This document shows positions 1-31,895 of a stretch of DNA of 56,561 nt, in pieces. The position numbers and the translations under genes are program-made. Source of the DNA: Sphingobacteriales bacterium (lineage in GTDB: Bacteria > Bacteroidota > Bacteroidia > CAILMK01 > JAAYUY01); assembly GCA_012517435.1 (NCBI GenBank), contig JAAYUY010000058.1, positions 1-56,561 on the forward strand, in the 5' to 3' direction. Position 1 is the first letter of the stretch, and every line of letters begins with the position of its first letter. The notes under the pieces were generated by a model, which saw nothing but the letters and a program-made list of their open reading frames with translations, had not been told where the DNA came from and did not search any database.

Positions 1-1
1 A

Positions 2-190
2 TAACGATTGGATATACGCAATATAGCGTATATTTTTACTTTACTTGAATACGCCTCCTCCATAAAAATTATGTTCACTTACATTTGATGGCAAAATTAA
101 TATTTTTTTTCAGATACAAAAGCAACAAAGTTTTATACAATAAAAAAAATGTTTTGTTATCCAAGGCGGAATTCTTCCATCTTTCAGGCA
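2..190. repeat. Left copy of the island-flanking direct repeat
   Basis: This stretch reappears in diverged form at 9393-9584 in the same orientation. Shared blocks include TAACGATTGGATAT, TTTTTACTTTAC, GAATACGCCTC, GGCAAAATTAAT, CAGATACAAAAGCAACAAAG and CCAAGGCGGAATTCTTCCAT. Near its start is a perfect 8-bp inverted repeat (ATATACGC 12-19, GCGTATAT 26-33, loop AATATA) followed by a T run. The right copy keeps this hairpin through G-T wobble pairs. No protein in it is recognised. It may be the left edge of the restriction/antiporter island, but the left flank lies outside the window. Confidence 0.8.
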
Positions 191-454
191 TGGACAGGAA
201 CAGGTACTCAATTAACCACTTCACTTATGCCAAACGCCTGTTACCACCGGTGCTTCCTTGTCTGCCGGGGATAGTCTGTCTATTTCTTGCAGTCATCTTC
301 ATTGTCTTTTGTCGTGAGTCGGGCATTTTTTAAAATTTCTTTTCTTTTGGTTTGGCTTTGCAATCTCTTTTAACAGTATTGGTTTAAGCGTTGGCTTCCT
401 TCGACAAGTTCCGGACAAGTGTGCAGTTTTTACATGTGCTTGCAAATGCGTGGG
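191..454. other. Non-coding stretch downstream of hsdM
   Basis: No gene is recognised. The only notable element is CTTCGACAAGTTCCG at 399-413, which matches 13 of 15 bases of the palindromic-type element found twice, in the opposite orientation, inside hsdR (5353-5367 and 5571-5585). No convincing terminator for the minus-strand hsd operon was seen here. Confidence 0.5.
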
Positions 455-1951
455 CTATTTCCCGTTTATTGTTCCCATTATTTCTTCAAAACTTTCTATG
501 CCTGCTCTCAGGTTTTCGATGATGTCGCTGGCTAATACATCCGGGTCGGGTAAATTGTCAAGGTCTGTAAGGCTTTTGTCTTTTATCCAGGTAATGTCGA
601 GGCTGGTTTTGTCCCGTTCAATAATTTCATTATAGGTGAATTTGCGCCAACGGCCTTCGGGATTGGTTTCGGGATGGTAGGTTTCTTTGCGCTGGTGTAT
701 GTTGGATGGATTATAGCATTTAATGAAATCCTGCAAATCTTCGTAACGCAAAGGATTCTTCTTGAGCGAAAATTTGATATTGGTTCTGAAATCGTAAAAC
801 CAAATTTCTTTAGTCCAGGGTTCTTTGGCTGCAGGCTTATTGTCGAAAAACAACACGTTGGCTTTTACGCCTTGCTTGTAAAAAATTCCTGTCGGTAAGC
901 GGAGTATGGTATGCAGGTTGGTGGTTTCCAGCAATTTCTTTCGGATGGTTTCACCTGCACCGCCTTCAAACAATACGTTGTCGGGCAAAACTACAGCGGC
1001 TCGTCCGTTCGATTTGAGCATGGTGCGGATGTGCTGCAAAAAGTTCAATTGTTTGTTGCTGGTGGTTACCCAAAAGTCCTGACGGTTGTAGGTGAGATCT
1101 TCGCTGTCCTGTTCTCCTTCTTCGTTGGTGAAGGTCATGCTGCTTTTTTTGCCGAAAGGCGGATTGGTCAGTACATAATCTACCCGCAAACCTGTGTCGG
1201 AAATGAGGGCATCGGCCGGAGAGATAAAATTGTCGCTGTCAAAATCGCCTATGTTGTGCAGGAATAGGTTCATCAGCGCCAGCCTTCGGGTATTCTGAAC
1301 AATTTCGTTTCCGAAAAAAGTGTTGAGCTTGAGAAATTCCTTTTCTTCGCGGGTGAGTGAGTAGTTGGCCGGGTTGGCAATAAAATCATAAGCGGCCAGA
1401 AAGAAACCGCCCGTTCCGCAAGCAGGGTCGGCTATGGTTTTCATGGGTTCTGGTCTAACACATTCCACCATGGCACGGATTAAGGCTCTGGGGGTGAAAT
1501 ACTGACCGGCACCGCTTTTGGTGTCTTCTGCGTTTTTCTCCAGCAAGCCTTCGTAAATCTTGCCTTTTACATCGGCTCCCATGGTACTCCATTGCTCTTT
1601 GTCAATCATATCAATGAGTTTGGAGAGTTTGGCAGGGTCTTGTATTTTATTTTGGCTCTTGATAAAGATTTGCCCCAGAATACCTTTTGATTGTGATAAT
1701 TCTCTCAACAAATTGGTATAATGATTTTCTAACTCCGCGCCACGTTTAGCCGTAAGGCTTTCCCAGTTGTATTCTTTTGGAATGGGTAGTTTACGGTTGT
1801 AAGGCGGTCTGCTGAACTCGTCTGCCATTTTCAGGAACAGCAGGTAGGTGATTTGTTCGAGGTAATCGCCATAGCCTACACCATCGTCACGCAATACGGT
1901 GGCAAAACTCCATACTTTGCTGATGATGCTGGAAGTGTTGTTTTCTGTCAT
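455..1951 (-). CDS. hsdM: Type I restriction-modification DNA methyltransferase subunit HsdM
   Basis: Adenine-N6 methyltransferase subunit of a type I restriction system; with HsdS it methylates the recognition sequence, and with HsdR it forms the cutting complex. About 498 residues. The N-terminal HsdM_N helical region has the usual start (SKVWSFATVLRDDGVGYGDY). The SAM-binding motif DPACGTGGFF is near residue 172 and the catalytic NPPFGKK near residue 262, so the active site looks intact. The ATG at 1951 is preferred over an in-frame TTG at 1960, because the TTG lies inside an AT-rich tandem repeat. hsdM is the last gene of the minus-strand operon, with rhuM and a four-helix-bundle gene separating it from hsdS. 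The repeat array touching its start could affect expression, but that is inference. Confidence 0.95.
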   Translation of the reverse strand: MTENNTSSIISKVWSFATVLRDDGVGYGDYLEQITYLLFLKMADEFSRPPYNRKLPIPKEYNWESLTAKRGAELENHYTNLLRELSQSKGILGQIFIKSQNKIQDPAKLSKLIDMIDKEQWSTMGADVKGKIYEGLLEKNAEDTKSGAGQYFTPRALIRAMVECVRPEPMKTIADPACGTGGFFLAAYDFIANPANYSLTREEKEFLKLNTFFGNEIVQNTRRLALMNLFLHNIGDFDSDNFISPADALISDTGLRVDYVLTNPPFGKKSSMTFTNEEGEQDSEDLTYNRQDFWVTTSNKQLNFLQHIRTMLKSNGRAAVVLPDNVLFEGGAGETIRKKLLETTNLHTILRLPTGIFYKQGVKANVLFFDNKPAAKEPWTKEIWFYDFRTNIKFSLKKNPLRYEDLQDFIKCYNPSNIHQRKETYHPETNPEGRWRKFTYNEIIERDKTSLDITWIKDKSLTDLDNLPDPDVLASDIIENLRAGIESFEEIMGTINGK

Positions 1952-20712: not shown

Positions 20713-23700
20713 ATGACAAAGATGGCAGATACCAATAAAGCATTTAACGAGGAAAATATACTGGAACATGCCCACCGGGAGAGATTAAAGGAACTGGCAG
20801 CCATCAACCGGACTTCAGGTTTGCTGAAAGAAGGAAGACCTTTGGATGATACATTTCAGCAATTGTGTTTTTTCCTGCCTGAAGCATGGCAATATCCCGA
20901 ATTTACCTGCATAAGAATACGATACAATGGGAAAGTTTATACCAGCCAGGGATTTCTGGAAACAAAATGGTCGCAGATGGCTGGATTTGAATCTTTTGAC
21001 GGGAAAAAGGGGAGCATTGAGGTTTTTTATACCCGTGAGTTTATGGAGATTGATGAAGGTCCTTTCATGAAAGAAGAACGTGACCTTATTAATAATTTAG
21101 CCGGTTTGATTACAGGCTACCTCAATTCCATGCTGGCCAGGGAGGTCTTCAAAATCAAGGAAGAAAAAGCTGAAAGCTGTATTGTGCCGGGAACATTGAA
21201 ACCCGGACGTAAGCTTCTTCATCAGTTTTTAAATAAAAACAATTACGACAGAGATATTTATCACGACCTGATGCCATATAAGGTTCGGGAAATTCTCCTT
21301 GTGGCTACCCTTTATGATGCTTACAGCATTGAACGTGAAGGGCGATTCTCTGAATATGTACTTGGCGAATATCATCAGCTCAACCTGACTTCACTTCCAC
21401 GGATAACCGGTGTTTCTTCAGAGGAAGAGGTTTTTGAACAACTTTATTCAAAACATTACGATCTGATTATCTTTATGGTTGGTGTGGATAAAAAATTACC
21501 CGTTCGCATCAGTCATCAGGTTCGTGAAAAATTTCCCTACATCCCGATTTTCTTCCTGCTCAACAACAACCAGGATGTTTCCTTGTTTCATGATAAGTCA
21601 TACCCGTTTATTGACCGTCTTTTTGTGTGGAACGGGGATTCGAAGGTGTTTTTTTCCATGATCAAGCATCTGGAGGACAAAATAAACGCTGAAAATGATA
21701 CACGGATTGGGATGGTCAGGGTGATTCTGCTGGTGGAAGACTCCCCGATTTATTATACCCGCTATCTTCCTATGCTTTATTCTGTGGTAATGGAACAAAC
21801 CAAACGTATTATTGATGATGTAACAACAGATGAGCTTTACCGCGTATTGAAACTCAGGGCGCGGCCAAAGATTTTGCTTGCTACCAATTATGAAGAGGCC
21901 ATTGAGATTACTGAAAAATATAAGGATTATCTGCTGTGTCTGATTTCCGACATGAGCTTCAGGAAAAACGGTGTTGATCATCCGATGGCAGGTTACGAAC
22001 TGGTCAGCCATGTGAAAAGCCGGTTTAAAGACCTTCCTGTCATACTTCAATCTTCTGATCCTGAAAACGCCAGGTTAGCCTTCGAACTAAAATCAACTTT
22101 TATAGATAAAAATTCCGACAGCCTTCTGCAGGATTTCAGAAGTTTTATTACCCATTATCTGGGTTTTGGTAATTTTGTTTACCGCAACAGCAAAGGGGTT
22201 CAGATTGCGGTGGCTCATTCCCTGAAGGAATTTGAAAAACAATTAAGAGTGATCCCTGACGATTCTTTGCTTTACCATGCAAGACGCAATCATTTTTCGC
22301 TCTGGCTGATGGCAAGAGGCGAAATACAGGTAGCAAAAATTATCAATCCTGCTAAAGTTTCTGATTTTAAGAGTCCTCAGGAATTGCGTGAATATCTGAT
22401 TGACGTGATTCAGAAATTCCGTAATGAGCAGAATCAGGGAAAAGTGATTCCGTTCGAAGAATCAGCTATCAATGACGAGAGCAATATTCTGCTGTTGACA
22501 GAAGGAGCATTGGGAGGAAAAGGACGAGGCCTTGCTTTTGTCAATACGCTTATCTATAATTTTGATTTTCATCAGCTTATACCTAACATTAATATACGAA
22601 CCCCGAAAACTTCCATCATTGGTGCCGATGAATTCGAGTATTTTCTTGATCGCAACAATCTCAGAGAGGTGCTCGATGAACACATTACTGAATATGAATT
22701 CATCAGGGAAAATTTTGCTAAAGGACATCTCTCGGAAGGTCTGATAAAAAAACTGAAACTTATCCTGAAAAACATTACAAAACCGCTGGCAATACGTTCT
22801 TCCGGACTATTTGAAGACTCCCTGGCTCAACCTTTTGCCGGAATTTTCGAAACCTATATATTGCCCAACAATCATCCCGACCTGAATGTCAGGCTGGAAC
22901 AGTGTATGTCAGCCATCAAGCTGGTTTATGCTTCTGTTTATTCTCCTGTAGCCCGTGCCTATATCGAAGCAGTTCATTATAAAATCGAAGAGGAGAAAAT
23001 GGCAGTTGTAATTCAGGAACTTGTTGGGAATCAGTTTGATGAATATTATTATCCGCATATCAGCGGAGTCGCCCAGTCGTACAATTTTTATCCGTTCGGG
23101 CACATGAATCCGGAAGATGGATTTGCAGTTGCAGCTCTTGGGTTGGGAACCTATGTCGTTCAGGGCGAAAAAGCCTATCGCTTTTGTCCGAAATATCCGA
23201 CCCTCGACATCAACACCCCTAAAGATCAGTATAAAAACTCCCAGGTTTATTTTTATGCTGTAAACCTGAAAAACAAAGATATTAACCTGATGGAAGGAGA
23301 GGATGCCGGACTTATAAAACTTGATATTGATGTAGCTGAAACGCATGGTAGCATTAAACATCTTGCTTCTGTTTACGACCGCGACAACGAGCGTATAGTC
23401 CCCGGCTTGTCTGAATATGGTCCAAGGATTATCAACTTTGCAGATATACTTAAATATCAGTATATTCCGCTTGCCGAAACCATTGCAGATATTCTGGAAA
23501 TTGTTCAGGAAGCGCTGGGCTCACCGGTCGAAATTGAATTCGCTGTGGATTTGACAAAAGACAATAAAAACAGGGCTTCCTTTTATCTGCTTCAGATCAA
23601 ACCGCTTTTCGGCAGTGCTCAGGATTTCGAATTTGAGGCAGACAACATCCCAAAAGATGAAATCATTCTTTATACGGTTAAAGGGATGGGAAATGGAATG

Positions 23701-24162
23701 ATTGACAATTTGACTGATGTTATTTATGTGGATTATCAGGACTTTGATAAATCAAAAACACGGGAAATGGCAGCCGAAATTGATAAAATAAACAGCAGGA
23801 TGGTCGAACAGAATAAAAATTATATTCTGATAGGCCCTGGACGTTGGGGAACACGCGATCAATGGATTGGAATTCCGGTTGCATGGCCTCAGATTTCCAA
23901 TGCCAAAGTGATTGTTGAAACAAGTTTTGAAGACTTTCCTCTTGATGCTTCTTCCGGTTCCCATTTCTTTCATAATGTAACTTCAATGAATGTGGGTTAT
24001 TTTACTATTCAGCAGGAATATGAAAATCAATGGATTAACTGGGATTTACTGAAAAAAGGAAAACTGGTCAGTAAGTATAATTTCTTTACCCATGTCTGTT
24101 TCGAACAACCACTCAAGGTGATGATGGATGGTAAAAAAAGAATTGCTGTCATAAAAGTGTAA
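20713..24162 (+). CDS. Receiver/ATP-grasp fusion protein with PPDK_N domain, GAF-like N-terminus
   Basis: 1149 residues. Domains in order: a sensor-like domain (about 20-150) also found in the next gene; a degenerate receiver (about 190-325); a receiver (about 335-485) with acidic LLVEDSP, candidate phosphoacceptor Asp near 412 in LISDMSF and Lys in FIDKNSD; then a PEP-synthase-type ATP-grasp domain (about 590-970) with GGKGRGLAF, AIRSSGLFEDSLAQPFAGIF, GLGTYVVQG and EIEFAVD ... LLQIKPL, so the ATP-binding residues look intact. The C-terminal 170 residues contain the distinctive GPGRWGTRDQWIGIPVAWPQ. The phosphohistidine and PEP/pyruvate TIM-barrel domains of PEP synthase are absent, so it cannot be a PEP synthase. 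First gene of a four-gene operon. It probably transfers phosphate from ATP to an unknown acceptor under receiver control; this is inference. Confidence 0.85.
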   Translation: MTKMADTNKAFNEENILEHAHRERLKELAAINRTSGLLKEGRPLDDTFQQLCFFLPEAWQYPEFTCIRIRYNGKVYTSQGFLETKWSQMAGFESFDGKKGSIEVFYTREFMEIDEGPFMKEERDLINNLAGLITGYLNSMLAREVFKIKEEKAESCIVPGTLKPGRKLLHQFLNKNNYDRDIYHDLMPYKVREILLVATLYDAYSIEREGRFSEYVLGEYHQLNLTSLPRITGVSSEEEVFEQLYSKHYDLIIFMVGVDKKLPVRISHQVREKFPYIPIFFLLNNNQDVSLFHDKSYPFIDRLFVWNGDSKVFFSMIKHLEDKINAENDTRIGMVRVILLVEDSPIYYTRYLPMLYSVVMEQTKRIIDDVTTDELYRVLKLRARPKILLATNYEEAIEITEKYKDYLLCLISDMSFRKNGVDHPMAGYELVSHVKSRFKDLPVILQSSDPENARLAFELKSTFIDKNSDSLLQDFRSFITHYLGFGNFVYRNSKGVQIAVAHSLKEFEKQLRVIPDDSLLYHARRNHFSLWLMARGEIQVAKIINPAKVSDFKSPQELREYLIDVIQKFRNEQNQGKVIPFEESAINDESNILLLTEGALGGKGRGLAFVNTLIYNFDFHQLIPNINIRTPKTSIIGADEFEYFLDRNNLREVLDEHITEYEFIRENFAKGHLSEGLIKKLKLILKNITKPLAIRSSGLFEDSLAQPFAGIFETYILPNNHPDLNVRLEQCMSAIKLVYASVYSPVARAYIEAVHYKIEEEKMAVVIQELVGNQFDEYYYPHISGVAQSYNFYPFGHMNPEDGFAVAALGLGTYVVQGEKAYRFCPKYPTLDINTPKDQYKNSQVYFYAVNLKNKDINLMEGEDAGLIKLDIDVAETHGSIKHLASVYDRDNERIVPGLSEYGPRIINFADILKYQYIPLAETIADILEIVQEALGSPVEIEFAVDLTKDNKNRASFYLLQIKPLFGSAQDFEFEADNIPKDEIILYTVKGMGNGMIDNLTDVIYVDYQDFDKSKTREMAAEIDKINSRMVEQNKNYILIGPGRWGTRDQWIGIPVAWPQISNAKVIVETSFEDFPLDASSGSHFFHNVTSMNVGYFTIQQEYENQWINWDLLKKGKLVSKYNFFTHVCFEQPLKVMMDGKKRIAVIKV

Positions 24163-24171
24163 AAATTTCCT

Positions 24172-25023
24172 ATGAAAGATATTATTAAAGACAGGCTGAA
24201 TGAAAGGGCAAAAGAACTGAATTGCCTGTATCAGGTGATTGATTTGCTACGCCATGAGAATTCATCATTAAACTATGTTTTTCAACAACTTGTAAAAATT
24301 ATTCCTCCTGCATGGCAATATCCTTCCGTTTGTTGTGTACGAATTACCTATGAAGATGAAGTGTTTAAATCCGAAGAATTTCTGGAAACTTTATGGGTGC
24401 AGTCTGCTGATATAGTAGTGGACGACAAGGTAATGGGGAAAATAGAGGTTTTTTATATGCAGTTCATCCGCCTTATCAATGGCAGCCAGTTTTTGCCTGA
24501 AGAACAGAAGTTGTTGAATGTCATTGCTTTAAAGATAAGTGAATACTTGTTTTCCCGTAAATTGCAAAAAACGATTGAGCTTTTGCAAAAAGAGAGTCAT
24601 CTGTTGACGCATGAAATGGAAAGCAATGAGATATTGCCTGTTTTTCACGACCAGCATTGGAAATGGCGATACAGAATGGTTGAAAAACTGGTCGGAAAAC
24701 TGGACAGGGAAAAAACCGGAGTTGTTGCCTGTTATGTAATTGGAAGTACAAAAAACGCAACGGCAGGGCCAAAAAGCGATATTGATCTCCTGATTCATTT
24801 CAGGGGAAATGACCTGCAACGAAATGCACTTTTGGCTTATATCTCTGGTTGGAGTCATGCCCTCGCTGAATACAATTATGAAAAAACCGGTTGCCTGTCG
24901 GAAGACGGATTGATTGATTTACATATCATTACAGATGAAGATATTGAGAAGAAGACATCTTATGCCATCATGATAGGATCAACCGAAAATTCGGCACGAA
25001 AAATTCCATTTGCAGGAGAATAA
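24172..25023 (+). CDS. Nucleotidyltransferase-domain protein with shared sensor-like N-terminus
   Basis: 283 residues. Residues about 5-140 are homologous to the N-terminus of the preceding ATP-grasp protein: PPAWQYPSVCCVRITYEDEV and then SEEFLETLWVQSA here, against PEAWQYPEFTCIRIRYNGKV and TSQGFLETKWSQMA there. The C-terminal part is a Pol-beta-type nucleotidyltransferase domain, with CYVIGSTKNATAGPKSDIDL giving the GS motif and D-x-D near residues 190-208, and a possible third Asp in DGLIDLHIITDED. The domain is of the minimal (MNT-like) type. It lies 9 bp after the first ATP-grasp gene. The shared N-terminal domain suggests both proteins respond to the same signal or partner. The target of nucleotidyl transfer is unknown. 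Confidence 0.85.
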   Translation: MKDIIKDRLNERAKELNCLYQVIDLLRHENSSLNYVFQQLVKIIPPAWQYPSVCCVRITYEDEVFKSEEFLETLWVQSADIVVDDKVMGKIEVFYMQFIRLINGSQFLPEEQKLLNVIALKISEYLFSRKLQKTIELLQKESHLLTHEMESNEILPVFHDQHWKWRYRMVEKLVGKLDREKTGVVACYVIGSTKNATAGPKSDIDLLIHFRGNDLQRNALLAYISGWSHALAEYNYEKTGCLSEDGLIDLHIITDEDIEKKTSYAIMIGSTENSARKIPFAGE

Positions 25024-25027
25024 GCTC

Positions 25028-25870
25028 ATGATAATTCTTTTTACATCGGATCTCCACGGAAAAATTCAGCGCTATAACGAATTGTTCAGGCAGGTTGAAA
25101 ATATCAGGCCTGATGTGGTTTTGCTGGGCGGTGATTTGCTTCCTCATGTCAGAAAGATTGATTTTCATGAGTTTGTTGAGGATTTTCTGATAAAAAATTT
25201 TGACAGTCTGAGATCAGGGATGAAAGATGAATATCCTTTTGTGGGCCTGATTTTGGGAAATGATGACCCGGGGATTGCTGAATCCATTTTTATAGATGCC
25301 CAGAAAAGCGGAATATGGACCTATCTTCACATGAAAATGGTTCATTTCAAAGGAATTGATTTCTACGGATATTCTTTTGTTCCGCCAACGCCCTTTTTGC
25401 TGAAAGACTGGGAAAAATACGATGTTTCGCGCTATGTTGATCCGGGTTGTGTTCCTCCTGATGAGGGGTTCAGAACCAAAGAGCCTGATTACGACACCGA
25501 ATTTGCTACCATAGCAGACGACCTTGAACGACTCTCCGGCCATGCTGATGTTTCTCAGGCTGTTTTTTTATTTCATTCGCCTCCATACCAGACAAAACTC
25601 GACCGGGCTGCCTTCGATGGAAAAATGATAGATCATATTCCGCTGGATGTCCATGTCGGAAGTATAGCTATCCGAAGGTTTATCGAAAGCAGGCAACCAT
25701 TTCTGACTTTGCATGGCCATATTCATGAATCTACCTTTCTGACGGGTCATTTTTCCGACAAACTGGGAAAAACATGGATGTTTAACGGAGCAAACCATAC
25801 CCATGAACTTCCCCTTATTGTGATTGATACGGATTCCCCGGAAAATACAAAACGTTTGTTGTACCCATAA
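25028..25870 (+). CDS. Calcineurin-like metallophosphoesterase
   Basis: 280 residues from the ATG at 25028, preceded by CAGGAG at good spacing; an upstream TTG would overlap the previous gene. The metal-binding motifs appear in order: FTSDLHGKIQRY (D-x-H), VLLGGDLLPH (GD), LILGNDDPG (a GND variant of GNH), FLFHSPPY (H) and LTLHGHIHES (GHxH), then GANHTHELPLIVID. The chemistry is hydrolysis of a phosphoester; the substrate may be a nucleotide, a cyclic nucleotide or a phosphorylated product of its neighbours. It lies 4 bp after the nucleotidyltransferase gene and 10 bp before the second ATP-grasp gene, so it is firmly part of the operon. Confidence 0.9.
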   Translation: MIILFTSDLHGKIQRYNELFRQVENIRPDVVLLGGDLLPHVRKIDFHEFVEDFLIKNFDSLRSGMKDEYPFVGLILGNDDPGIAESIFIDAQKSGIWTYLHMKMVHFKGIDFYGYSFVPPTPFLLKDWEKYDVSRYVDPGCVPPDEGFRTKEPDYDTEFATIADDLERLSGHADVSQAVFLFHSPPYQTKLDRAAFDGKMIDHIPLDVHVGSIAIRRFIESRQPFLTLHGHIHESTFLTGHFSDKLGKTWMFNGANHTHELPLIVIDTDSPENTKRLLYP

Positions 25871-25880
25871 TAAATTTAAA

Positions 25881-28874
25881 ATGCCATTTTCAAAGTATTA
25901 CCGATTTTCAAGCAAAATTGACGAAACTTCATTTCACCTCCTGATGAAAAAACGCATTCATCAGGTGTTACTTATTTCAAGTGCTTACGATTCCTTTATG
26001 CTTGAAGAAGATGGTCGCATTGACGAGCAGATTTTCAATGAATATACTTCACTTAGCCTGCGTTATCCACCGACTTTCATCCATGCCACCTCTGCCGAAT
26101 CGGCTTTTCAAATCCTTGCTTCAGAAAAAATAGATCTGATTATCAATATGTTAAGTATTGAAGACATGGATCCGTTTGAGCTGGCAAAAAATATAAAAGG
26201 TAAATATTCATGGATTCCCATTGTCGTACTGACACCTTTTTCACGTGAGGTTTCGCTTAAGCTCACCAATGAAGACCTTAGTGCGGTCGATTATGTGTTT
26301 TCCTGGCTTGGTAATGCTGATTTGCTGCTTGCTATCATCAAACTTATCGAAGACAAGATGAATGTCGAAGATGATGTGATTAATGTGGGAGTTCAGACCA
26401 TTATTCTGGTGGAAGATTCCATTCGTTTTTACAGCAGCTATTTGCCTTTGCTTTATAAAATTATTTTCCGTCAGAGCAGGGAGTTTATCACCGAAGCCCT
26501 GAACGAACACCAAAAAATGCTACGACTGAGAGGGAGGCCAAAGGTTCTGCTGGCCACCAACTACGAGGAAGCCATCACTTTTTATGAGAAATATAAAAAC
26601 AATCTGCTGGGAGTCATAACCGACATTAGTTATAAAAGGAATAATGAGACTGATAAGCTGGCGGGTGTAAAACTATGCAGAAAATTGAAGGAAGAGGATT
26701 TGTACCTGCCGGTATTACTTCAGTCGTCTGAACTTGAAAATGAAAAATATGCCAGAGAGCTTGATGTCAAGTTTTTGTATAAGGAATCGAAAACACTGCC
26801 ACTCGAATTACGCGATTATATCAATGAATATCTGGCTTTCGGCCCTTTTATATTCAGAGATCCCAAGACAAAGGAAGAAATAGGAAGAGCCATTGACCTT
26901 CAGGATCTGCAGCATAAACTGTTTGACATTCCGGATGATAGTTTCATTTATCATATTGAAAGAAATCATTTTTCCAAATGGTTGAATGCCAGGGCATTGT
27001 TCCCGATTGCTGACAAGCTGAAGTACATGACCATGGAAGATTTCAACAAAGACCTCGATCAGATCAGGCGATACATTTATGATGCTATTGTAGCTTACAG
27101 ATTAAACAAAGGGAGGGGTATTATTGCCGATTTTGACAGGACCAGGTTTGATGAATTTACTATTTTTTCCCGCATCGGAGAAGGAAGTATTGGTGGTAAA
27201 GCCCGCGGCCTTGCCTTTATTGATTCAATGATTAAAAAACATGACATTATTGATAAATTTCAGGATGTTATTATCACCATTCCCCGGACAGTGGTCATTT
27301 CCACTGATATTTTTGATGAGTTTCTCGAAATCAATAATTTATGGGAAATTGCCTTGTCCGATTTACCTGATGAGGCAATATTGTCTCATTTTTTAAATGC
27401 CCACCTGCCTGTAAAAATCCATGCCGACCTGCTGGCATTTTTGTCTGTTATTAAAAACCCTATAGCCGTTCGTTCCTCAAGTTTGCTCGAAGATAGCCAT
27501 TATCAGCCTTTTGCAGGGGTTTATTCCACTTATATGGTCCCCAATGTTAAAACCGATGAAAGAACTTTTCTCGAACTGGTCAGTAATGCCATCAAAGCCG
27601 TCTATGCCTCCGTGTTTTACAAATCAAGCAAAGCCTATATGCAAGCCACTTCGAATGTGATTGATGCCGAAAAGATGGCTATTGTTTTACAGGAAGTGTG
27701 TGGTAATCAATATAATGGAAAATTTTATCCAACTCTTTCGGGGGTGGCTCGCTCCATCAATTTCTACCCCATAGATCCTGAAAAATCAAAAGACGGAGTG
27801 GCCAATGTTGCCTTTGGACTTGGAAAATATATTGTGGATGGAGGGGTTTCTCTAAGATTTAGCCCGAAACACCCCAAACGGATTATTCAGCTGTCTTCTA
27901 CTGAAAATGCACTCAGGGAAACGCAAAAATATTTTTATGCCCTTGACATGGAAAATACCCGCTTTATTCCCTCCACTGATGATAGCTGCAATATGTTGAA
28001 ACTTAAAATTTCAGAAGCTGAAGCGCATGGTTCTCTTAAATATGTGGTTTCTACCTATGATTTTCAAAATGATATCATTCGCGATGGTTATTTTCAGAAT
28101 GGGAAAATCATCGTAACTTTTTCACCTATATTGAATCATCATCTCTTCCCTTTGTCTGATATTCTGAGCTATTTACTGGAAATAGGGCAAAAAGAGATGA
28201 ACAAACCCATTGAGATTGAGTTTGCCGTCAACCTCAATGTCCCGAAAGACAGCCCCAAAATATTCAACTATCTCCAGATCCGGCCTATCGTTCAGACAGA
28301 CGAAAAACTGAACTGCAAAATAGAAGATATTGAACCCAACGAGTGTATTATTTATTCAAACTCAGCATTGGGAAACGGGATTATTAACGACATTTACGAT
28401 TTTATTTATGTAAAACCTGATACTTTCAAATCATCAGCAACCAAACAAATTGCCGAAGAAATAGAAAAACTGAATGCGAAAATGGCAGATGAAAAAAGGT
28501 ATTTTGTGCTGGTTGGTCCGGGCCGCTGGGGCAGCAGCGATCCATGGCTGGGTATTCCGGTCAAGTGGGCTCAGATTTGTCAGGCAAGAATTATAGTCGA
28601 ATCTGGCCTGTCAAGTTTTCGTATCGATCCAAGCCAGGGGACCCATTTCTTTCAGAACCTGACTTCTTTCAGGGTGGGATATTTTACCATTAATCCGTTT
28701 ATCAATGATGGTTATTTTGACCTTGATTATCTGAAAAGTAAAGAATGTGTTTTTGAAAATCAGTATCTGAAGCACATTCGTTTTCAGAATCCGATTAAAA
28801 TAAAAATTGACGGACAAAAAAATATTGGCGTAGTTTTAAAGGAAGAATACATTGATCCTCAGAATGTTATTTAG
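25881..28874 (+). CDS. Second receiver/ATP-grasp (PPDK_N) fusion protein
   Basis: 997 residues from the ATG at 25881 (MPFSKYYRF), just after the stop of the metallophosphoesterase gene. Paralogue of the 20713 protein without its N-terminal sensor-like domain. A degenerate receiver (about 30-165) is followed by a receiver with ILVEDSI near 178, candidate Asp in VITDISYK near 246 and Lys in LYKESK near 300. The ATP-grasp domain, about 430-810, has GGKARGLAF, AVRSSSLLEDSHYQPFAGVY, GLGKYIVDGG and EIEFAVN ... YLQIRPI. The C-terminal module has GPGRWGSSDPWLGIPVKWAQ near 879. As in its paralogue, no phosphohistidine or PEP domain follows. Two paralogues in one operon may form a heteromer; this is inference. 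Confidence 0.85.
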   Translation: MPFSKYYRFSSKIDETSFHLLMKKRIHQVLLISSAYDSFMLEEDGRIDEQIFNEYTSLSLRYPPTFIHATSAESAFQILASEKIDLIINMLSIEDMDPFELAKNIKGKYSWIPIVVLTPFSREVSLKLTNEDLSAVDYVFSWLGNADLLLAIIKLIEDKMNVEDDVINVGVQTIILVEDSIRFYSSYLPLLYKIIFRQSREFITEALNEHQKMLRLRGRPKVLLATNYEEAITFYEKYKNNLLGVITDISYKRNNETDKLAGVKLCRKLKEEDLYLPVLLQSSELENEKYARELDVKFLYKESKTLPLELRDYINEYLAFGPFIFRDPKTKEEIGRAIDLQDLQHKLFDIPDDSFIYHIERNHFSKWLNARALFPIADKLKYMTMEDFNKDLDQIRRYIYDAIVAYRLNKGRGIIADFDRTRFDEFTIFSRIGEGSIGGKARGLAFIDSMIKKHDIIDKFQDVIITIPRTVVISTDIFDEFLEINNLWEIALSDLPDEAILSHFLNAHLPVKIHADLLAFLSVIKNPIAVRSSSLLEDSHYQPFAGVYSTYMVPNVKTDERTFLELVSNAIKAVYASVFYKSSKAYMQATSNVIDAEKMAIVLQEVCGNQYNGKFYPTLSGVARSINFYPIDPEKSKDGVANVAFGLGKYIVDGGVSLRFSPKHPKRIIQLSSTENALRETQKYFYALDMENTRFIPSTDDSCNMLKLKISEAEAHGSLKYVVSTYDFQNDIIRDGYFQNGKIIVTFSPILNHHLFPLSDILSYLLEIGQKEMNKPIEIEFAVNLNVPKDSPKIFNYLQIRPIVQTDEKLNCKIEDIEPNECIIYSNSALGNGIINDIYDFIYVKPDTFKSSATKQIAEEIEKLNAKMADEKRYFVLVGPGRWGSSDPWLGIPVKWAQICQARIIVESGLSSFRIDPSQGTHFFQNLTSFRVGYFTINPFINDGYFDLDYLKSKECVFENQYLKHIRFQNPIKIKIDGQKNIGVVLKEEYIDPQNVI

Positions 28875-28980: not shown

Positions 28981-30108
28981 ATGATTCTGGGAATACTCAA
29001 AGAAAAAGAGCCTGAAAAAAGAGTGGCATTGCTGCCCGAAGATGCCGCTACGCTGGTTAAAATGAAAGTTCATGTCAGAATAGAATCAGGGGCGGGAGAA
29101 ACAGCTTTTGCCAGCGACAACGACTATGTAGCTCAGGGCGTTGAAATAACTGACAGAAACACCATTTTGACACAAAGCGATATAGTCATCTGTATCAATA
29201 CGCCCGAAAAATCGGAAATGGACAAAATCGGAGAGCAAAAAACCATCATGTCGGTGTTCAATCCCCTGTCAGATGTCGAAACGGTTAAATACCTGAAAAA
29301 CAAAAACCTGACAGCATTCAGTTTTGACATTATTCCGCGTACAACCCGTGCTCAGGCCATGGATATCTTATCATCAATGGCAACTGTTTCAGGATACAGG
29401 GCTGTGCTCGATGCTGCCCGCTTTTTACCGACTTTCTTCCCTATGTTTATGACCGCTGCCGGTACCATCAAACCTGCAAAGGTGCTGATACTCGGAGCCG
29501 GTGTGGCAGGCCTGCAGGCACTTGCTACTGCCCGTAAACTGGGCGCCCAGGTTGAAGTATTCGATGTCAGGTCGGCTGTCAGGGAAGAAGTGAAAAGCCT
29601 TGGCGGAAAATTCGTGGAGGTTGAAGGGGCAGTTGAAGATAAAGCAGCCGGAGGTTATGCGGTTGAGCAAACGGAAGAATATAAAAGAAAACAGCAGGAA
29701 GCTATTCATAATCATGCAGTTAAATCGGATGTCATCATTGCCACTGCTCAGATTCCCGGTAAAAGAGCCCCTATACTGCTGAAGAAAGAAACGGTTGAAG
29801 CCATGAAACCCGGTAGTGTGATTATTGACCTCGCTGCTTCGACAGGTGGTAACTGCGAACTGACCGAAAATGCCAGTACAGTTGTGAAAAATGGTGTAAC
29901 CATTATTGGCAAATCAGATTACCCTGCCACCATGCCTGTTGATGCCAGCCGTATGTTCGGGAAAAACATTATTAATTTCCTGAAACTGCTGATCGATAAG
30001 GAAGGAAATTATAACATTAATCTGGAAGATGATATTGTTAAAGGCACCTGTGTTACTCATTCGGGAAATATCATCAGCGAAAGAATAAAATCAGTTGTTG
30101 AACCTTAA
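28981..30108 (+). CDS. pntAA: NAD(P) transhydrogenase alpha subunit, part 1 (NAD-binding)
   Basis: 375 residues: the soluble domain I of proton-translocating transhydrogenase, which binds NAD(H) and exchanges hydride with NADP bound to PntB. The N-terminal alanine-dehydrogenase-like fold opens with LGILKEKEPEKRVALLPEDA. The Rossmann fingerprint VLILGAGVAGLQALATARKL is near residue 170, followed by VEVFDVRSAVREEVKSLGG. Later blocks TAQIPGKRAPILL and MKPGSVIIDLAASTGGNCEL are typical. It stops before the membrane part, which is a separate gene 12 bp downstream, so the alpha subunit is split as in many bacteria. Confidence 0.97.
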   Translation: MILGILKEKEPEKRVALLPEDAATLVKMKVHVRIESGAGETAFASDNDYVAQGVEITDRNTILTQSDIVICINTPEKSEMDKIGEQKTIMSVFNPLSDVETVKYLKNKNLTAFSFDIIPRTTRAQAMDILSSMATVSGYRAVLDAARFLPTFFPMFMTAAGTIKPAKVLILGAGVAGLQALATARKLGAQVEVFDVRSAVREEVKSLGGKFVEVEGAVEDKAAGGYAVEQTEEYKRKQQEAIHNHAVKSDVIIATAQIPGKRAPILLKKETVEAMKPGSVIIDLAASTGGNCELTENASTVVKNGVTIIGKSDYPATMPVDASRMFGKNIINFLKLLIDKEGNYNINLEDDIVKGTCVTHSGNIISERIKSVVEP

Positions 30109-30119
30109 TTATTAAAGCC

Positions 30120-30431
30120 ATGCAGGAGATATTTCAGTTTTTATACGTTAACAAAGAGATGTTGTTCATCATCGCCCTGTCCATTTTACTGGGCGTTGAG
30201 GTTATTTCACATGTTCCGGCTATCTTGCACACCCCGTTGATGTCGGGAGCAAATGCCATTCATGGAGTCGTTATCATCGGAGCCATTATTGTGATGGGAC
30301 ATGCCGAAACAACTGCCTCTATCATCCTTGGATTTTTTGCAGTCATCCTTGGAACACTCAATGTGGTTGGCGGTTTTGTGGTTACAGACCGTATGCTTGA
30401 GATGTTTAAGAAAAAACCTAAAAAAGACTAA
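30120..30431 (+). CDS. pntAB: NAD(P) transhydrogenase alpha subunit, part 2 (membrane)
   Basis: 103 residues with three to four membrane segments: the N-terminal part of the proton channel domain II. The family block SHVPAILHTPLMSGANAIHG then VVIIGA is present, with TLNVVGGFVVTDRMLEMFKK at the end. It is encoded between pntAA (12-bp gap) and pntB (4-bp gap). With PntAA it forms the functional alpha subunit. Confidence 0.97.
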   Translation: MQEIFQFLYVNKEMLFIIALSILLGVEVISHVPAILHTPLMSGANAIHGVVIIGAIIVMGHAETTASIILGFFAVILGTLNVVGGFVVTDRMLEMFKKKPKKD

Positions 30432-30434
30432 GTT

Positions 30435-31895
30435 ATGAACGAGATAATAAATTTTACTAAAGAACTGTCGTTTTCTTCCGGACAGTCTTTGCTCGAAATG
30501 ATTTACCTGATTGCTTCTGTATTGTTTGTATTCGGACTTAAAATGCTCAGCCATCCTGAAACAGCGAGGAAAGGAAATTTATGGGCTGCGTTCGGGATGA
30601 CGCTTGCAATTGCAGGAACTATTTTATTCCATAAAAAAGACGGTCAGGGTATTCACAACATAGGATGGATTATTGGTGGCATTGTTATCGGAACTTTAAT
30701 CGGATGGATAGTGGCCAAACGTGTTAAAATGACCGCCATGCCACAGCTGGTTTCTTTATTTAACGGAATGGGAGGTGCATGTGCTGCTTTGATTTCGCTG
30801 ATGGAATATCCTCATCTTCATGTGGTGGGAGGGCACTACCAGGCAGGTATTGTCATCACCATCGTTTTAGGTGCTATGATTGGAACAGTTTCATTTACTG
30901 GAAGCATGATAGCTTTCGGAAAACTGAATGGAAATCTGGGCGATATCAGAAATAAAATCATGAGGCCCATTAACATTCTGATCCTGCTCGTTTTACTTGC
31001 CCTGATTATTGCCATCGTGTTTTTCCCGAAATATGTTGATCACGAAGGTTATCAGAGCCTCGATATGACGCTTCTGTGGGTATTATTCGGACTTTCTTTT
31101 GTCTATGGAATTTTGTTTGTCAGCCCGATAGGAGGAGCAGATATGCCTGTGGTTATTTCACTGCTGAACTCATTTACAGGACTTGCTGCTGCTTTTGGTG
31201 GGTTTCTGTATCACAACCAGGCTATGCTTACAGGAGGTATTCTGGTCGGATCCTCAGGAACCATTCTGACCATTCTCATGTGCAATGCGATGAACCGTTC
31301 CCTTATCAATGTCATTGCTGGCGCTTTTGGGGGTGGAGGCAGTGCAGCTAATCAGGAAACCGGTACCGTTAAGGAAATTACTCTTTCGGATGCCGCTGTA
31401 TTACTGAGTTATTCACAGAAAGTGGCAATTGTTCCCGGCTATGGACTGGCAGTAGCTCAGGCTCAGCATATCTGCCACGAACTTGATAAAATGCTGGAAG
31501 AGAAAGGAGTGGAAGTCAGATATGCCATTCATCCGGTAGCAGGACGTATGCCCGGACACATGAATGTCTTGCTGGCTGAAGCTGATGTTCCCTATGAAAA
31601 ACTGATTGAAATGGATGATATCAATCCGGATATGCCTAATATTGATGTTGTGGTAATTGTAGGAGCCAATGATGTGGTCAATCCGGCTGCCGAAGACGAT
31701 CCTTCTTCTCCTATTTATGGCATGCCTATTATCAAGGCAAGAGAAGCTAAAAATGTCATTGTGATGAAAAGAGGAATGGGAAAAGGCTACGCTGCTATTG
31801 AAAATATGCTGTTTTTTCATCCAAAAACAAGGATGTTGTTTGGCGATGCTAAATCTACCATCCAAAAACTGATTGAGGAAATAAAGAATCTTTAG
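30435..31895 (+). CDS. pntB: NAD(P) transhydrogenase beta subunit
   Basis: 486 residues: eight or nine membrane segments of the proton channel, followed by the soluble NADP-binding domain III. The membrane part has FNGMGGACAALISLMEYPHL and SLLNSFTGLAAAFGGFLYHN. The NADP domain has VAIVPGYGLAVAQAQH, HPVAGRMPGHMNVLLAEADV, VIVGANDVVNPAAEDDPSSP then IYGMPI, and VMKRGMGKGYAAIENMLFF. The enzyme uses the proton motive force to make NADPH from NADH. Last gene of the operon; no strong terminator was seen after it. Confidence 0.97.
   Translation: MNEIINFTKELSFSSGQSLLEMIYLIASVLFVFGLKMLSHPETARKGNLWAAFGMTLAIAGTILFHKKDGQGIHNIGWIIGGIVIGTLIGWIVAKRVKMTAMPQLVSLFNGMGGACAALISLMEYPHLHVVGGHYQAGIVITIVLGAMIGTVSFTGSMIAFGKLNGNLGDIRNKIMRPINILILLVLLALIIAIVFFPKYVDHEGYQSLDMTLLWVLFGLSFVYGILFVSPIGGADMPVVISLLNSFTGLAAAFGGFLYHNQAMLTGGILVGSSGTILTILMCNAMNRSLINVIAGAFGGGGSAANQETGTVKEITLSDAAVLLSYSQKVAIVPGYGLAVAQAQHICHELDKMLEEKGVEVRYAIHPVAGRMPGHMNVLLAEADVPYEKLIEMDDINPDMPNIDVVVIVGANDVVNPAAEDDPSSPIYGMPIIKAREAKNVIVMKRGMGKGYAAIENMLFFHPKTRMLFGDAKSTIQKLIEEIKNL

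Follow-up and report, generated by a model that had tools for sequence, protein, structure and literature searches.

In Bacteroidota, the gut Bacteroides included, glutamate dehydrogenase (GDH) is a main route of ammonia assimilation and of glutamate breakdown. For glutamine synthetase and PII, control of the GlnE/GlnD type links a nucleotidyltransferase to an ammonia-assimilating enzyme. Reversible inactivation of GDH was reportedly described in B. fragilis in 1987, and a 1996 paper by Baggio and Morrison (J Bacteriol 178:7212) is said, by its title, to concern one or more trans-acting genes downstream of gdhA in Bacteroides thetaiotaomicron. The closest described enzymes pair an ATP-grasp domain with a histidine domain that carries phosphate: pyruvate phosphate dikinase (PPDK) and phosphoenolpyruvate (PEP) synthase, built from PF01326, PF00391 and PF02896, and rifampin phosphotransferase (Rph) and the two-component dikinase HpeHI, whose substrate is not pyruvate (PMC4844700, PMC12167813). 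We analysed a 56,561-nucleotide stretch of a Sphingobacteriales bacterium (contig JAAYUY010000058.1 of GCA_012517435.1; the window), which encodes two ATP-grasp proteins, members 1 and 2, that share a C-terminal module with a GPGRWG block. The strongest new fact to emerge is that this ATP-grasp/module family has GDH as its partner. Based on gene linkage and co-occurrence, we propose that its members probably form an ATP-driven control module for GDH, for which we infer both phosphoryl transfer and an effect on GDH; the family is probably an unrecognised control system for bacterial ammonia uptake or release.

Relatives were collected in two ways. A profile search of 296 genomes drawn phylum-wide found the module in 49 of them, and a scan of named genomes, in which the motif itself served as the search pattern, gave at least 586 stretches that encode relatives; because of this spread, the module is beyond chance. 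Neighbouring genes were surveyed in the best 80 of these at least 586 loci, together with the window. The GDH linkage was first seen in the 80 loci and then counted in the 49-genome draw; both are sets of species genomes and may overlap. Among the 80 loci, GDH was the commonest outside neighbour cluster (32/80), the cluster matching NF006929 with 759.7 bits against a cut-off of 536. In the draw, GDH and a member were no more than 500 bp apart in 39 of the 49 genomes, and in 40 a GDH gene was present anywhere in the fetched stretch. Counted by member, 54 of 84 had a GDH gene within 500 bp, and in 44 of these 54 it was upstream and on the same strand. From gene number and genome size, we estimate that such adjacency would be expected by chance in well under a few per cent of cases.

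The pairing extends to the type of GDH. Two types are involved, a 446-aa NADP type (counted at E≤1e-150) and a 428-aa type (PF00208, 242 bits; counted at E≤1e-130), and the members fall into a main branch and a divergent branch, the latter being the low-scoring rows of the 296-genome profile search. The divergent branch and the 428-aa GDH occurred in the identical 22 of 296 genomes; in four of these (G340, G250, G214 and G163) the member and GDH genes sit on separate contigs. Forty genomes had the main branch, and all 40 were among the 95 of 296 with the 446-aa GDH. Fisher values, uncorrected for kinship, were 1.1e-33 for the divergent branch with the 428-aa type and 1.8e-23 for the main branch with the 446-aa type. 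Within families f61, f79 and f59 both pairings vary, yet they stay matched.

Of 41 genomes of the genus Bacteroides, 36 encode a member. From these 36 we sampled 20 loci, of which 19 gave a member open reading frame; two (L259 and L261) are apparently also in the 49-genome set. GDH was found within 5 kb in 15 of the 19 and within 500 bp in nine, while four had none; five loci have GDH genes on both sides, and in many cases GDH is encoded on the other strand or a single gene away from the member. The trans-acting gene or genes of B. thetaiotaomicron reportedly likewise lie near gdhA, as members do in most Bacteroides loci, and their identity with members is our guess. In the literature covered, which leaves most subscription journals outside, nothing was found on GPGRWG, DUF5752, BT1970-BT1973, reversible GDH inactivation in Bacteroides or the member family.

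The features of the window that concern us are as follows.

20713..24162, + strand: member 1, 1149 aa, with a sensor-like N-terminus, pseudo-receiver, receiver, PPDK_N ATP-grasp and C-terminal module
21268..21678, + strand: pseudo-receiver, member 1 residues about 186-322 (from the conservation table of 107 members; boundaries approximate)
21718..22152, + strand: receiver, member 1 residues about 336-480, with E342, D343, D413, S447 and K466
22507..23613, + strand: PPDK_N ATP-grasp, member 1 residues 599-967 (PF01326, 1.7e-41)
23608..24159, + strand: C-terminal module of member 1, predicted to be a divergent swivelling phosphohistidine-type domain
23833..23850, + strand: GPGRWG block, member 1 residues 1041-1046
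23950..23970, + strand: SxG[S/T]HFF block of member 1, with SGSHFF from 23953 and H1084, the candidate phospho-histidine, at 23962-23964
24172..25023, + strand: nucleotidyltransferase (NTP_transf_2, GS..SDID; PF01909, 2.1e-6)
25010..25870, + strand: metallophosphoesterase (PF00149, 4.7e-7), for which the ATG at 25028 is the likelier start
25824..28874, + strand: member 2, listed at 1016 aa; a start at the ATG at 25881 would give 997 aa, the length that relatives usually have
28284..28871, + strand: C-terminal module of member 2, with GPGRWG from 28515, QGTHFF from 28635 and H941 at 28644-28646

Members 1 and 2 are co-directional paralogues, with 38% identity over 974 residues, C-terminal module included, and the nucleotidyltransferase and metallophosphoesterase genes sit between them. 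A genome search with the module family found two copies in the source genome, both in the window. Begun at the listed TTG, the gene of member 2 overlaps that of the phosphoesterase (25824-25881).

Similar to PPDK and PEP synthase, both proteins belong to the ATP-grasp family, and they keep its key residues ahead of a predicted swivel fold with an invariant His. PPDK_N (PF01326) matched residues 599-967 of member 1 with 143 bits and residues 455-837 of member 2 with 140.3 bits (E 1.7e-41 and 1.2e-40; cut-off 27). In 98 aligned sequences covering the ATP-grasp and the module, the GGK, the R of RSS, the EFA and the Q-x-[KR]-P residues are invariant; in alignment numbering, the ATP-binding positions are G21, G22, K23, R115, E362 and Q381. 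We take the roles of the invariant Lys, Arg and acidic/Gln residues to be those known from PPDK. Unlike in PPDK and PEP synthase, the swivel domain is unrecognisable by sequence, the barrel is absent, sensor-like, pseudo-receiver and receiver regions are added, and the genes are linked to GDH. At the sequence level, the ATP-grasp is intact, the module with its invariant His comes directly after it, and there is no PEP/pyruvate barrel behind the module. Pfam and NCBIfam searches gave no match to the TIM barrel PF02896 in either protein, both of which end after the module; therefore the phosphoryl group, if one is formed, must go elsewhere than to pyruvate. Rph and HpeHI resemble the members in combining an ATP-grasp with a His domain, here a predicted one (PMC4844700, PMC12167813). 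In the members, however, the module is C-terminal and directly follows the ATP-grasp, and a receiver is present. A small-molecule-binding domain of the Rph/HpeHI type was not recognised by profiles, the fold models covering the ATP-grasp and module, and the Rph model NF041857 (RIF_Ptrans) scored 17-22 bits against a cut-off of 999.

Judged by its residues, the receiver that precedes the ATP-grasp is intact. The acidic pair, phospho-acceptor Asp, Ser/Thr and Lys are each retained by 98 or more of the 107 members compared (E342 in 107, D343 in 98, D413 in 106, S447 in 105 and K466 in 106). In the first receiver-like unit, a conserved phospho-acceptor Asp was not found in the conservation table of 107 members. 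Response_reg (PF00072) matched member 2 with 38.3 bits (cut-off 30.2), in the pseudo-receiver region, and member 1 with 16.9 bits, below the cut-off.

The original prediction had drawn attention to a conserved C-terminal module in both ATP-grasp paralogues, and its observation was right: a module of about 184 residues with GPGRWG and SxG[S/T]HFF follows the PPDK_N match in each protein. Some details need correction. A start at 23640 is out of the reading frame, and translation from there runs into stops; the module of member 1 occupies about 23608-24159. The GPGRWG block of member 2 is present, starting at 28515 rather than 28516. The module as a whole had been thought exceptionally conserved between the paralogues, but it is 38-40% identical where the full proteins are 38% identical; strong conservation holds for short blocks, with 14 of 20 residues identical in the GPGRWG block by hand count. 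Across 188 aligned members, G1043, R1044, W1045, G1046, G1053, E1069, S1080, H1084, F1085, F1086 and Y1096 never vary. We recounted these positions in 90 profile-found members, a set free of the bias of the motif pattern, and all were conserved in 90 of 90. A conserved His had been expected in HFFHN, and this is borne out for the first His (H1084; H in 188/188 and 90/90) and not for the second, where Q is found in 71 of the 90, H in 18 and L in one.

The suggestion that the module stands where PEP synthase has its swivelling His domain, and may carry phosphate, is partly supported and is the best reading; a substrate domain, the other role it named, may also fit. AlphaFold2 folded the module alone with confidence (100 sequences; pLDDT 91.9, pTM 0.90), and likewise the ATP-grasp with the module (98 aligned sequences; pLDDT 90.1, pTM 0.87). 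Neither disorder nor an unrelated known domain was thus found: when the module alone was compared by VIA-align, the best 12 of 50 listed rows were all swivelling phosphohistidine-type domains (Z 6.0-6.9, 2.9-4.2 A). They comprise the extra domain of pyruvate kinase (3t05 and 2e28; region 474-581), which we take to be of this type, PPDK (5jvn, 1vbg, 5jvj, 5lu4, 1kbl, 2x0s and 2r82; region 370-510), the isolated PPDK phosphoryl-carrier domain 2fm4 (114 of 128 residues matched) and Rph (5fbu and 5hv1; region 756-865). The central domain of PPDK (aa 380-515) holds the catalytic H456 in a helix and the C-terminal phosphohistidine domain of Rph holds His825, and the matched ranges correspond to these domains (PMC5371819, PMC4844700). 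In the module model, the invariant His (position 119) starts a helix (118-126) between strands 99-105 and 130-134; as modelled, this is the place of the His in swivel domains. VIA-align 2 matched the two-domain model to PEP synthase 2ols (Z 26.4, 366 aligned, 4.6 A; model 1..569 on chain 4..465) and to rifampin phosphotransferase 5hv3 (Z 26.4, 342 aligned, 3.6 A, to chain residue 856), these Z scores coming mainly from the ATP-grasp part. Thus the predicted fold, the placement against 2ols and the invariant His speak for a swivel position, while the profile-profile comparison was non-significant and Z stayed below 8. That the module works like a swivel domain has good support from the predicted structure and from conservation. 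We have kept it out of PF00391 because it fails the profile and motif tests of that family.

The two genes between the paralogues may belong to the same system. The catalytic part of the window's nucleotidyltransferase is 32-53% identical to a C-terminal domain fused to 18 divergent-branch members, and its N-terminal domain resembles that of member 1 (31.7% identity over 218 residues). Of the 17 nucleotidyltransferase-fused members counted, 11 have, no further than 1.5 kb away, a phosphoesterase 43-53% identical to that of the window. That the window's gene set recurs, rearranged, next to GDH argues for one functional module. As in control by GlnE and GlnD, a nucleotidyltransferase is tied to an ammonia-assimilating enzyme, a likeness of role; unlike there, this enzyme is GDH, and an ATP-grasp/His protein is what the nucleotidyltransferase is fused with or linked to.

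Taken together, from the domain content, the modelled fold and the analogy with known dikinases, we lean towards the view that the module is a strongly diverged swivelling phosphohistidine-type domain within an ATP-driven GDH control protein. By analogy with PPDK, PEP synthase and Rph, the ATP-grasp would phosphorylate H1084 with the beta phosphate of ATP; the module would then swing and deliver the phosphoryl group to an acceptor that is not part of pyruvate metabolism. Linkage and co-occurrence suggest that the target would be GDH, or a metabolite or protein signal that sets GDH activity. Candidate acceptors would be GDH, the protein's own receiver D413 or a metabolite, with GDH activity as the output, and the receiver may either gate the reaction or accept the phosphoryl group. 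The linked nucleotidyltransferase and metallophosphoesterase could act in the same control circuit. More tentatively, one may imagine a widespread covalent GDH control circuit, in which a phosphoryl group from ATP (converted to AMP) would pass to GDH or the receiver Asp and on to a signalling output, with the nucleotidyltransferase and metallophosphoesterase opposing or complementing it. Such a circuit would be to GDH what the adenylylation cascade is to glutamine synthetase, and it would account for the reported trans-acting need of Bacteroides GDH; we regard it as possible, with the odds somewhat against it.

Several observations weigh against the proposal that the members carry a swivel domain and control GDH. 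For the module alone, Z remained below 8, the thirteenth row (TRiC) already reached 5.7, and glutamate carboxypeptidase was among the next rows. Foldseek gave no match for the module alone at E≤0.001, and no profile in the Pfam and NCBIfam sets matched it above the cut-off, PF00391 giving no match even at E≤10. Searches against PDB sequences (phmmer and hmmsearch) returned best E values of 0.16-0.76, for unrelated proteins or for the ATP-grasp part. An HMM-HMM comparison, which the original prediction had proposed as a check, was non-significant: with 28 swivel sequences taken from the phylum's genomes (30 loci, two with stops dropped), hhalign gave a probability of 0.3%, and control alignments (ATP-grasp, GDH and N-terminal) gave 0.1-0.3%. 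The module has SxG[S/T]HFF and lacks, in that form, the GGxTSH motif that known swivel domains carry; the two motifs were brought near each other only in an insignificant low-threshold hhalign run. On the side of GDH, genome kinship makes the Fisher values overstate independence, 55 of the 95 genomes with the 446-aa GDH are without a main-branch member, and the window's two copies have no GDH nearby, the two GDH genes of the source genome lying on other contigs. A locus with the same gene order as the window (L104) has GDH on both flanks, and one from the same family as the window's source (L040) has it 2.2 kb away.

Other explanations must be set against these data. Automatic annotation would name the proteins PEP synthase or PPDK on the strength of the PPDK_N match and of weak matches to NCBIfam PEP synthase models. 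That they are ordinary enzymes of this kind is extremely improbable, since the PEP_synth model gave 41.3 and 31.9 bits against a cut-off of 740, neither a PEP-utilizers nor a TIM-barrel match was found in the two proteins, and the source genome encodes a 912-aa PF00391 protein elsewhere; a classical PEP synthase was accordingly ruled out by domain content. It is quite unlikely that the module has only the swivelling beta/beta/alpha fold and serves in binding or docking, with a structural or metal-binding His and an ATP-grasp that is a ligase or kinase for another target. This would suit a Z of 6-7, which is within the chance range for common arrangements, the non-significant profile comparison, and the rows that follow the swivel domains (TRiC apical, glutamate carboxypeptidase, RraA and LD-carboxypeptidase), presumably all of the same broad fold class. 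Phosphohistidine domains nevertheless rank first among the fold matches, the His is invariant, and the module directly follows PPDK_N, just where PEP synthase and PPDK have their swivel domain.

The remaining two alternatives concern GDH. The members could be metabolic enzymes in which the phosphoryl group on H1084 goes to a small molecule from the metabolism of glutamate or 2-oxoglutarate, GDH being a pathway neighbour and not the target. The swivel-domain dikinases Rph and HpeHI do phosphorylate small molecules (PMC4844700, PMC12167813), and subunits of 2-oxoacid:ferredoxin oxidoreductase lie near members in 13-14 of 80 loci. We consider this unlikely: a separate substrate-binding domain was not seen after the module, the receiver and sensor-like N-terminus favour signalling, and the pairing with GDH types runs class by class. 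Finally, GDH and member genes might merely be co-transcribed or co-regulated, with no direct action on GDH. The operon-like, same-strand layout in 44 of 54 adjacent cases would fit; so, it may be argued, would the many Bacteroides loci with GDH on the opposite strand or one gene off. This appears very unlikely, as the 22-genome match includes the four genomes with member and GDH on separate contigs and the pairing persists in divergent and convergent orientations.

If true, the proposed control of GDH by members would make this phosphotransfer protein, paired with GDH type by type, a testable candidate for setting GDH activity post-translationally. A swivel-His domain that escapes present profiles would be added as well, and hundreds of proteins that would otherwise pass as PEP synthase-like on account of their ATP-grasp domain would have to be renamed. 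The GDH pairing is the larger point, for it makes the old question of GDH control directly testable.

Two further candidates were tried and rejected. A phospho-acceptor site in GDH was sought by comparing 40 enzymes of the 446-aa type from member-bearing genomes (one row empty and one truncated) with 21 from member-less genomes, the 428-aa type being excluded; only three weak, kinship-confounded positions appeared, and they were not used. One of them, position 364 (L121:4025-5362), is Tyr in 36 of 40 with a member and Phe in 16 of 21 without, a weak difference that is confounded by kinship. WipA_Phos was considered as an identity for the module, but its match (E 0.0024) is below the cut-off and spans only module residues 16-71, and we judged it to be chance.

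By their titles, the best 80 of the at least 586 loci include some from Bacteroidales, Saprospiraceae, Chlorobiota/Ignavibacteriae, Cloacimonadota, Spirochaetes and one Bryobacterales bin. Near members, the oxidoreductase genes encode alpha and beta subunits (e.g. L079:2002-3846 and L126:1743-2768), and an NADPH-dependent glutamate synthase-like protein is found in 14 of the 80 loci. Directly downstream of member 2 (28981-31895), the window has matches to NAD(P) transhydrogenase, both to its alpha (AlaDh_PNT) and to its beta subunit, at a place where relatives often have GDH. In the linker between receiver and ATP-grasp of member 1 (residues about 521-531; 22273-22305), H522, S529 and W531 are invariant in 107 of 107 members, and this segment has a weak likeness to DUF5752. 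A third, more distant branch is represented by L117:8609-11305 (898 aa) and L128:5993-8623 (876 aa), whose modules score 124 and 106 bits and whose genes directly follow a main-branch member.

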